64,000 nt of DNA. Source: an uncultured Altererythrobacter sp. GTDB lineage: Bacteria; Pseudomonadota; Alphaproteobacteria; Sphingomonadales; Sphingomonadaceae. The stretch is taken from NCBI GenBank assembly GCA_913056125.1, contig CAJXNC010000003.1, positions 248,001 through 312,000 of the forward strand, given 5' to 3'. Numbering within the stretch: position 1 is the first letter of the stretch; each line of letters begins with the position of its first letter. Below are positions 2,303 to 34,899 of this stretch, one piece after another. A model generated the notes under the pieces. The model was not told the origin of the DNA and searched no databases. It was given only the letters and a program-made list of their open reading frames with translations. The translations under genes and the position numbers were made by a program.

Positions 2303-3051
2303 GATTTGCTGTCTGCGCCATTCCACTGCTGGGCCTGCTGGCCGCATGCAGCCAGTCCGACGCACCATCCGACGAACTCGAAGCTGCGGCCGAGGAATTG
2401 GTCGAGAATGTGGTCGAGACGCCTGATCCCAATGCAGGCCTCGGTCCGTTCGAGCCGCGCGACGAATGCAGCGAGATCGAAGGCTACGATTCCTTCCTCG
2501 CTGCGCTCAATGCGGCGATCGATTTGCGCGATACCGATCTGATGGTCGCCTTGGCCGCGACCGATATCAAGCTTGGCTTTGGCGGCGAGGATGGCGAGGA
2601 GAATTTGCGCCTCGCGCTCGACAATTCCGAAGGCGGATTGTGGAGCGACCTGGCCGAAGTGACGACATTGGGCTGCGCTGCCAATTCGCAGGGCGGCGTG
2701 ACCATGCCTTGGTATTTCGCGCAGAACACGGGCGGCGATCCGTTCGAGACGATGATCGTCACCGGCAAGGCCGTGGCCCTGCGTTCTGCACCCGGTATGG
2801 AAGAACCCGTCGTGGCCACGATCGACTGGGACGTGGTTGAACTGGTACTCGACGAGGATTCGGGCATTTCGACTTTTGGTGGCGAAGGCGAGGATAGCTG
2901 GACCCGTGTGCGCTACGCGAATGGTCCCGAAGGTACTCCCGTGGAAGGCTATATTCGCTCGCCCAACCTGCGTAGCGTGATCGATTATCGCCTGATCGCC
3001 TCGAGCCGCAATGGCCGCTGGCGGATTACTGCTTTCCTCGCCGGCGACTAG
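2299..3051 (+). CDS. Hypothetical lipoprotein with SH3-like C-terminal region
   Basis: Lipobox LLAAC; ATGA overlap with rmuC; WTRVRYANGPEGTPVEGYIRSPNLR resembles an SH3b-like segment. Confidence 0.7.
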   Translation: MRFAVCAIPLLGLLAACSQSDAPSDELEAAAEELVENVVETPDPNAGLGPFEPRDECSEIEGYDSFLAALNAAIDLRDTDLMVALAATDIKLGFGGEDGEENLRLALDNSEGGLWSDLAEVTTLGCAANSQGGVTMPWYFAQNTGGDPFETMIVTGKAVALRSAPGMEEPVVATIDWDVVELVLDEDSGISTFGGEGEDSWTRVRYANGPEGTPVEGYIRSPNLRSVIDYRLIASSRNGRWRITAFLAGD

Positions 3052-32561: not shown

Positions 32562-33113
32562 TCAGCCTTGGCAGCTCTCAGCGAGATAAGCGTCCAGTCT
32601 TGCGCCCAGTGGGCTGCCGTAGGTCGCGCGCAATTGTTCGAAGCCGATCAGCCCGGCAAATTCGGTAAAATTGCAGATGTCCTCCTGGAACCATTCGTCC
32701 AGCATATCGGCATCACAGCGACTGCTTTCCCTGCACGTCAGGACATCGTCGTAATAGTCGATCAGGGTAATGAACTGTCGCTGGGTGTCGCTGTCCAGCG
32801 AAACCGATGGCTTGGCGTCACCAATCAGGTTTGCCTGGTAGGCGAGAAGGTAGTCCTCCTCGTGCTCGACGAAGAAAGCGCTGACCGCCTGTTCTGCCGC
32901 GACGATCGTCTGGTCGTAGCCGATCTGCAGGATCGTCAACGATACCTGCTTACGCATCATGTCCTGCTGCTGGTCGCGCTCACCCGTATAGATCAGCCAC
33001 ATCACGGCAACGGTCGCGATCACCGCTAGGTTGGCGATCGGAGTGATCGATGCCAGCAGAAGCGCGCCAATGCCGCGTCGCGTTGGCACCTCAAGTTCGC
33101 TGTCGTTGCTCAA
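32562..33113 (-). CDS. Membrane-anchored hypothetical protein, TTG start overlapping upstream stop
   Basis: TM segment GIGALLLASITPIANLAVIATVAVMWLIY; TTGA overlap (33110-33113) with the upstream gene; the ORF-track extension to 33287 lies over that upstream gene. Confidence 0.6.
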   Translation of the reverse strand: MSNDSELEVPTRRGIGALLLASITPIANLAVIATVAVMWLIYTGERDQQQDMMRKQVSLTILQIGYDQTIVAAEQAVSAFFVEHEEDYLLAYQANLIGDAKPSVSLDSDTQRQFITLIDYYDDVLTCRESSRCDADMLDEWFQEDICNFTEFAGLIGFEQLRATYGSPLGARLDAYLAESCQG

Positions 33114-33466
33114 CTCTCGCCACAGGGCCGCAGGAACAACTCGACCTTGGCATCGTCGCGTTCGACCGCAATTGACCGATCGCCCGGCCTGATCTTGCGC
33201 AGGCATTGCACATCTTCGGGTGACAGCAGGAGATAGCGCTCGCTGAAGCGTTGCGGGAAGGCCCCGAGTACGGGCGTCGGCGGGCATTCGCCGAGATCAA
33301 GTACGGTGCCGCGTCGACTGACGACCAGTTCGTCCCGGTGTTGTAGCAGGCATCGGTATTGCTCTTGCGTCACCACCGAAGAACGGGATTGCTCATTGTC
33401 CTGAGCGGTCGCCTGTTGCGAGGCTAATGTCCCAGCGATTACGCAGAAGAAGACGCTCGATCTCAC
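33110..33466 (-). CDS. Exported hypothetical protein
   Basis: GTG start at 33466 preceded by GGAGGCCAG; signal peptide VRSSVFFCVIAGTLASQQATAQ. Confidence 0.6.
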   Translation of the reverse strand: MRSSVFFCVIAGTLASQQATAQDNEQSRSSVVTQEQYRCLLQHRDELVVSRRGTVLDLGECPPTPVLGAFPQRFSERYLLLSPEDVQCLRKIRPGDRSIAVERDDAKVELFLRPCGES

Positions 33467-33581: not shown

Positions 33582-33747
33582 GAGTCTTCCGCGCCACACC
33601 CCATCATATCGAGTCTGCAAAGAGTCAGGAGACTCAATATCTTGTGCCGGACTCTTTTCGTTCCGCATTAACCATATTCGCCCAACATGCCTCGCAGCGG
33701 CATTTGCTGCTTGACCCGGGACTCCTCAGGACTCACCCTGTGGATAA
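33582..33747. promoter_or_regulatory. ccrM upstream region: GANTC cluster plus perfect DnaA box
   Basis: GANTC at 33582, 33611, 33622, 33631, 33650, 33720, 33730; TGTGGATAA (reverse complement of TTATCCACA) at 33739-33747. Confidence 0.75.

Positions 33748-34899
<1,152 letters not shown>

Follow-up and report, generated by a model that had tools for sequence, protein, structure and literature searches.

A conserved, predicted promoter module with clustered GANTC sites and a DnaA box upstream of ccrM in Sphingomonadales

Why is the gene for an enzyme predicted to methylate GANTC preceded by a crowd of GANTC sites? The locus lies in a 64,000-nucleotide stretch of DNA from an uncultured Altererythrobacter sp. 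(the window), where seven such sites and a perfect DnaA box stand upstream of ccrM. A first-pass annotation of the sequence had proposed a switch that reads both methylation and DnaA. It was right about the cluster and the box, and it lacked the core promoter, the distal element, the helical phasing, and the G/C centres described here. All of its GANTC positions (33582, 33611, 33622, 33631, 33650, 33720, and 33730) were verified, as were the perfect DnaA box at 33739-33747 (TGTGGATAA) and the GTG start of ccrM at 33763. As anatomy, the “methylation plus DnaA switch” appears well supported.

The GANTC cluster and its conservation

The gene and its translation signal are as follows:

33763-34899, plus strand: ccrM, a GANTC adenine methyltransferase by domain content (NF050803, Pfam N6_N4_Mtase, RAMA), with a GTG start
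33752-33759, plus strand: likely ribosome-binding site AGGGGAAA, read from the sequence

The CcrM equivalog model NF050803 is the best match to the product (5e-185, nearly the full model), at 614 bits under a cut-off of 830 bits that was trained on Caulobacter-type CcrM. The methylase and RAMA domains (PF01555 and PF18755) both score above their cut-offs and, despite the sub-cut-off equivalog score, the gene is CcrM as judged by its domain content. Also encoded in the genome are gcrA (PF07750 above cut-off, G000:C3:62304-62924) and dnaA. Two small divergent genes on the minus strand of the window (33110-33466 and 32562-33100) gave no Pfam or NCBIfam match, and the product of the former looks secreted, judged from its N-terminus. 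A CcrM relative with 54% identity is found on a contig from a Chloroflexi-labelled MAG (L091), with zero GANTC in its 300-bp upstream region; the contig may be misbinned or the gene transferred.

The background of one GANTC per 256 bp assumed in the first-pass annotation was an overestimate. GANTC is avoided in the source genome, at one per 658 bp in the 464 kb sampled from 3.01 Mb, and in the window, which holds 102 copies compared with 307 in dinucleotide shuffles of the 64 kb. At the sampled rate about 0.23 sites are expected per 153 bp, so the seven present are a strong enrichment over the shuffles and the genome sample alike. The maximum in any other 153-bp stretch of that sample is 4, and Markov shuffles built from the region's own sequence reach seven or more in about 0.1% of trials. 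Family loci average 5.97 GANTC per 230 bp upstream of ccrM and other families 4.62, while the next-best of the 16 palindromic XYNY'X' pentamers averages 1.9 per 230 bp. The sites are also distinctive in their centre base, which is G or C in 7/7 of the cluster against a genome background of 30% (70% A/T; 464 kb). In the 87 family loci, G/C and A/T centres number 452:67 upstream of ccrM and 70:243 in the flanks.

The window's genus is counted here as Aurantiacibacter (Erythrobacteraceae), on the basis of named relatives. We sampled ccrM upstream regions from this genus and its family, from further families in the order, and from alphaproteobacteria beyond it. Alignment of the relatives' regions revealed that the GANTC layout is kept, with the architecture retained in 87 family loci and in 34 loci of other families and orders. 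Across the genus the sites stand in register, typically at -173, -144, -124, -105, -46, and -36, with the DnaA box at -24. Chance or base composition as the source of the cluster is contradicted by the shuffles, the genome sample, the pentamer comparison, and this conservation; we found nothing in its favour and consider it refuted, with a negligible probability.

The conserved stretch begins at 33582 and excludes the upstream gene. What lies upstream of ccrM also varies; for example, rnhB is directly upstream in 4/31 genus loci and in 28/56 other family loci. Since conservation stops before the upstream gene and the neighbour changes, the whole module can be assigned to ccrM. We rejected the possibility that it is the promoter of the upstream gene because block A (the distal element described below) stays with ccrM while the neighbours vary. 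Overall, the region is a conserved, predicted ccrM promoter module across Sphingomonadales.

Two further observations concern the surroundings of the module. At one locus (L010 in G017, about 2690-2930, minus strand), a stretch of some 250 bp, with inverted ends that are nearly perfect (GCCTGTGCTGTCTGGGTGGAA), separates the DnaA box from the ccrM start, and the module upstream of this stretch is intact. In other families (for example L118, L128, and L131), AACGCAGGATATGGT and GCACTAAAGCTTGTGGG in the 3' end of the rnhB gene upstream of ccrM look over-conserved for protein and could be an overlapping regulatory element.

The predicted core promoter and the sites around it

Closest to the gene we identified the following features:

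33668-33675, plus strand: CtrA-like TTAACCAT, 43 bp before the -35
33711-33716, plus strand: predicted -35 TTGACC, its TTGAC nearly invariant across the order
33720-33724, no strand: GANTC 6 (GACTC), within the promoter spacer, from the sequence and relatives
33730-33734, no strand: GANTC 7 (GACTC), beginning 19 bp past the TTGAC start, its last base opening the -10 position
33734-33739, plus strand: predicted -10 position CACCCT, degenerate, placed by an inferred 17-bp spacer
33739-33747, minus strand: perfect DnaA box TTATCCACA, spanning roughly -7 to +2 relative to the predicted transcription start

These describe a predicted sigma70-type core, TTGAC-N14-GANTC, in which the second GANTC provides the first base of the -10. 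The offset from TTGAC to this GANTC is 19 bp in 78 of 91 loci and 20 bp in 2, and the site is absent in 11. Order-wide, another GANTC usually lies inside the spacer of the core. Thus a GANTC is found between the -35 and -10 of a predicted sigma70-type promoter, but 0/7 of the window's sites fit YGAKTCG, the GcrA-activating motif of Caulobacter as cited in PMC7987155. Because the position agrees and that motif does not, we do not class the ccrM promoter as a GcrA/CcrM promoter, although it probably works like one. By analogy with Caulobacter, the core would use sigma70 and GcrA (PMC3667746, PMC4287350, PMC7403470).

The twin-GANTC form of the core has 35 matches in the genus against 2 for the reversed control, and only ccrM and ftsK recur with it there. 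For ftsK it was found at eight loci outside the window's genome in addition to the genome's own. The broader pattern TTGAC-N13-15-GANTC shows no enrichment in the genome (11 vs 18 for the reversed control), and enrichment is therefore limited to the twin form. In the source genome, the ftsK core (G000:C14:18269-18292, L169) is of the same TTGAC/twin-GANTC type as that of ccrM and is conserved in several genus members; the ftsK promoter is without a DnaA box and has a -10 of the CAYNAT type.

The -10 is of variable quality. In other families it is of the CATGAT/CATAAT type, with a mean of 3.7/6 matches to TATAAT and T at position 6 in all, whereas in species with the DnaA box it is CACCCT or similar, with 2.0/6 matches. 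As the latter matches TATAAT so poorly, we treat the ccrM start site as a prediction only.

The DnaA box had been described as lying just upstream of the ribosome-binding site. That is correct, and its stronger relation is to the core promoter, where it covers the predicted transcription start (at about -7 to +2, assuming a 17-bp spacer). TGTGGATAA is the only match to a relaxed DnaA pattern in the 64 kb. The box falls 28-32 bp past the TTGAC start in 62 of 87 family loci, a conserved place, and three loci without a box there have a perfect one elsewhere in the ccrM regulatory region. Perfect DnaA 9-mers number only six in the 3.01-Mb genome, including that at 33739-33747, which argues for selection behind their repeated placement before ccrM. 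The three boxes placed elsewhere belong to other genera and lie between the -35 and -10, 12 bp after the TTGAC start (L057), and within block A, at -152 (L103) and -153 (L106).

The position over about -7 to +2 is typical of repression, and DnaA at this predicted start site would most likely repress ccrM; the sign of the effect is the least certain step of our reading. Caulobacter DnaA activates several promoters, and a DnaA that activates ccrM might offset the poor -10. The two features do occur together in loci of the Erythrobacteraceae type, and in other families the -10 is good and the box is missing. However, a poor -10 (2.38/6) is also seen in those members of the family that lack the box, and a protein bound at about -7 to +2 normally excludes polymerase. 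We thus regard activation as rather unlikely, and prefer repression.

A TTAAC half-site at 33668 had been noted as a possible, weak CtrA half-motif. “Weak” was too low an estimate: TTAACC occurs in the forward direction in 36/85 family loci, compared with 3 for its reverse complement and 0-4 for scrambles. Its distance to the TTGAC downstream takes only a few values, namely 27-29, 38-39, or 43 bp. The window holds an incomplete version of the CtrA box TTAA-N7-TTAA (TTAACCAT with TTCG as the left 4-mer), and in several relatives the left half is nearly complete (CTAA, TTAG, or TTAT, for instance). CtrA-like sites and DnaA boxes are not mutually exclusive, as both are present in 26 of the 66 box-bearing loci.

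A distal element in helical register with the core

Farther upstream, five of the seven GANTC sites belong to the distal element that we refer to as block A:

33582-33664, plus strand: block A, GAGTC..CACACCCCA..ATATCGAGTC-N15-GACTCAATATCTTGTG..GGACTCTTTTCGTTCC, in ungapped register across the family
33582-33586, no strand: GANTC 1 (GAGTC), aligned in relatives
33595-33603, plus strand: CACACCCCA, the conserved non-GANTC part of the left half, from the family alignment
33611-33615, no strand: GANTC 2 (GAGTC), inner end of the left half-site, from the sequence and family alignment
33622-33626, no strand: GANTC 3 (GAGTC), optional, between the half-sites, in some relatives
33631-33646, plus strand: right half-site GACTCAATATCTTGTG (GANTC 4 at 33631-33635), the helical-phase anchor, 80 bp from the -35
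33650-33654, no strand: GANTC 5 (GACTC), followed by conserved TTTCGTTCC, from the sequence and family alignment

Block A consists of two half-sites in inverted orientation, whose inner ends, GAGTC and GACTC, are 20 bp apart; further GANTC stand in the flanks, making four to five in all across relatives. The genome has a second GAGTC-N15-GACTC just upstream of a gene for a CBS-domain protein (G000:C5:169033-169057, L221), without the flanks of block A.

The inverted repeat of complementary GAGTC and GACTC might suggest an RNA stem in a long leader, with the element working as RNA. Yet block A lies upstream of the predicted promoter, and we rejected an RNA structure given that there was no Rfam match and that broken stem pairs are uncompensated in relatives. 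Such a role is very improbable.

From block A to the -35 the intervening sequence is poorly conserved, yet its length is quantised in whole helical turns. In 82 non-duplicate loci the distance is only ever 60, 68-70, 78-81, or 89-91 bp (for L117, which has two TTGACC copies in tandem, we measured to the second, at 80 bp). A pattern search of 401 family genomes, in which every distance from 60 to 90 was allowed, gave 85 matches; among them were 60 hold-out genomes that had not entered the earlier measurements, of which 59 keep the register and the other misses it by 1 bp. In the same loci, the distance from the -35 to the start codon served as a control and is not periodic (distinct-value R of 0.08, vs 0.83 for block A to -35).

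Mapped on a quick CcrM tree, the length classes require 16 changes by parsimony, and 6 changes in the main class are already demanded by the strongly supported branches. Independent length changes thus number no fewer than 6, and probably some 16. If a uniform null is assumed, the chance that all fall in register ranges from p = 0.004 (6 changes) to 3e-7 (16 changes). Slippage by 10 bp is an alternative cause of whole-turn changes; we saw no obvious repeats in the spacers between block A and the -35. The GANTC positions themselves repeat at about 9.8-10 bp, most of which reflects shared ancestry.

Whole-turn spacing would follow from a need for polymerase and a protein on block A to lie on the same side of the helix. 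Upstream sites in CRP class I promoters are likewise tolerated only at whole-turn distances; unlike those sites, block A is built of methylatable sites and its bound factor is hypothetical. A more far-reaching reading, possible though less likely than not, is a methylation-reading enhancer: the array of GANTC half-sites would recruit GcrA or another reader that acts from the same face, with DnaA gating the start. If so, ccrM would count its own methylation marks at a distance.

Block A could instead be the operator of a dedicated transcription factor, with its GANTC partly incidental, as the inner ends of the half-sites, and only the two core sites read as methylation marks. The half-sites reach well past GANTC (CAnnATnTyGAGTC / GACTCRAyATCTTGTG), and the flanks CACACC and ATCTTGTG often survive where GANTC is lost, so part of block A may be read by a methylation-blind protein. 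CAAYATCTTGTG is also essentially unique to ccrM in the genome (14 matches with at most one mismatch vs 12 for the reversed control). A plain operator leaves unexplained, however, that optional extra GANTC recur in or near block A on a grid of about 10 bp, and we consider this explanation doubtful, if still a serious one. ACTCAATATCTTGTGC resembles an NrdR box, but we rejected that identification: the genome's one further exact copy of CAAYATCTTGTG falls within the reading frame of a LysR-type regulator, and near copies of CAAYATCTTGTG in the genome are no commoner than in the reversed control.

Another scheme is simple product feedback, in which CcrM would sit on, or be titrated by, its sites and shut its own promoter with no part for GcrA or DnaA. 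The densest GANTC cluster of the sampled genome does precede the methylase gene, but the scheme does not account for the 19-bp core offset, the ftsK core, the helical phasing, or the DnaA box. We judge it improbable.

Candidate inputs to ccrM and their meaning

With moderate confidence, we interpret the ccrM promoter as a multi-input switch composed of the core, the phased distal element, the DnaA box, and the CtrA-like site. In this proposal, RNA polymerase with GcrA would fire the core according to adenine methylation of the two core GANTC, so that passage of the replication fork, and then CcrM, would change the output. The protein on the distal element would touch polymerase or GcrA from the same helix face. 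DnaA over the start site would block initiation while active DnaA is plentiful, and ccrM would consequently be released once replication has begun. Where its site exists, CtrA would give a late activating input.

In Caulobacter, polymerase is recruited to methylated promoters by GcrA (PMC3667746), GANTC between the -35 and -10 accompanies cell-cycle-timed activation (PMC4287350), and a methylation response of ccrM itself is thought probable (PMC3973325). The ccrM promoter described here is similar to that of Caulobacter crescentus in its proposed ties to its own GANTC methylation (for Caulobacter probable, PMC3973325) and to a cell-cycle regulator (in Caulobacter, activation by CtrA, PMC3667746). 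It differs in having two GANTC in its core, a distal GANTC element held in phase, and a DnaA box at the predicted start, and in that the CtrA-like site is auxiliary, being absent in more than half of relatives. Caulobacter ftsZ, mipZ, and ctrA P1 also have GANTC between the -35 and -10 (PMC4287350, PMC3708114) with a sigma70-type -35, and a GcrA gene is present here. Unlike Caulobacter GcrA/CcrM promoters, the promoter described here lacks YGAKTCG, has two regularly placed core GANTC, and carries a distal element in helical register.

Brilli et al. (2010; PMC2877005) predicted a DnaA motif ahead of ccrM in alphaproteobacteria, chiefly in those lacking CtrA sites. That study used a matrix scan, whereas here the box keeps to one position over the predicted start in most loci and coexists with CtrA-like sites in the 26/66 loci noted above. 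Our literature search, which covered few subscription papers, found no experimental work on the ccrM promoter of any sphingomonad. On the literature found, therefore, what is new is a distal element held in phase and the arrangement of the core, while the general kind of control was known before.

To our knowledge, the timing of CcrM beyond Caulobacter and Rhizobiales is largely unstudied. In this bacterial group one short region bears candidate inputs from methylation, DnaA, and CtrA, and the group probably has its own way of linking CcrM synthesis to the methylation that CcrM carries out and to DNA replication. The helical-phase rule makes a sharp prediction, in that whole-turn changes of spacing would be tolerated and half-turn changes would not. 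The module would allow a direct test of whether DNA methylation and the start of replication both act back on the gene for the methylase via a single promoter.
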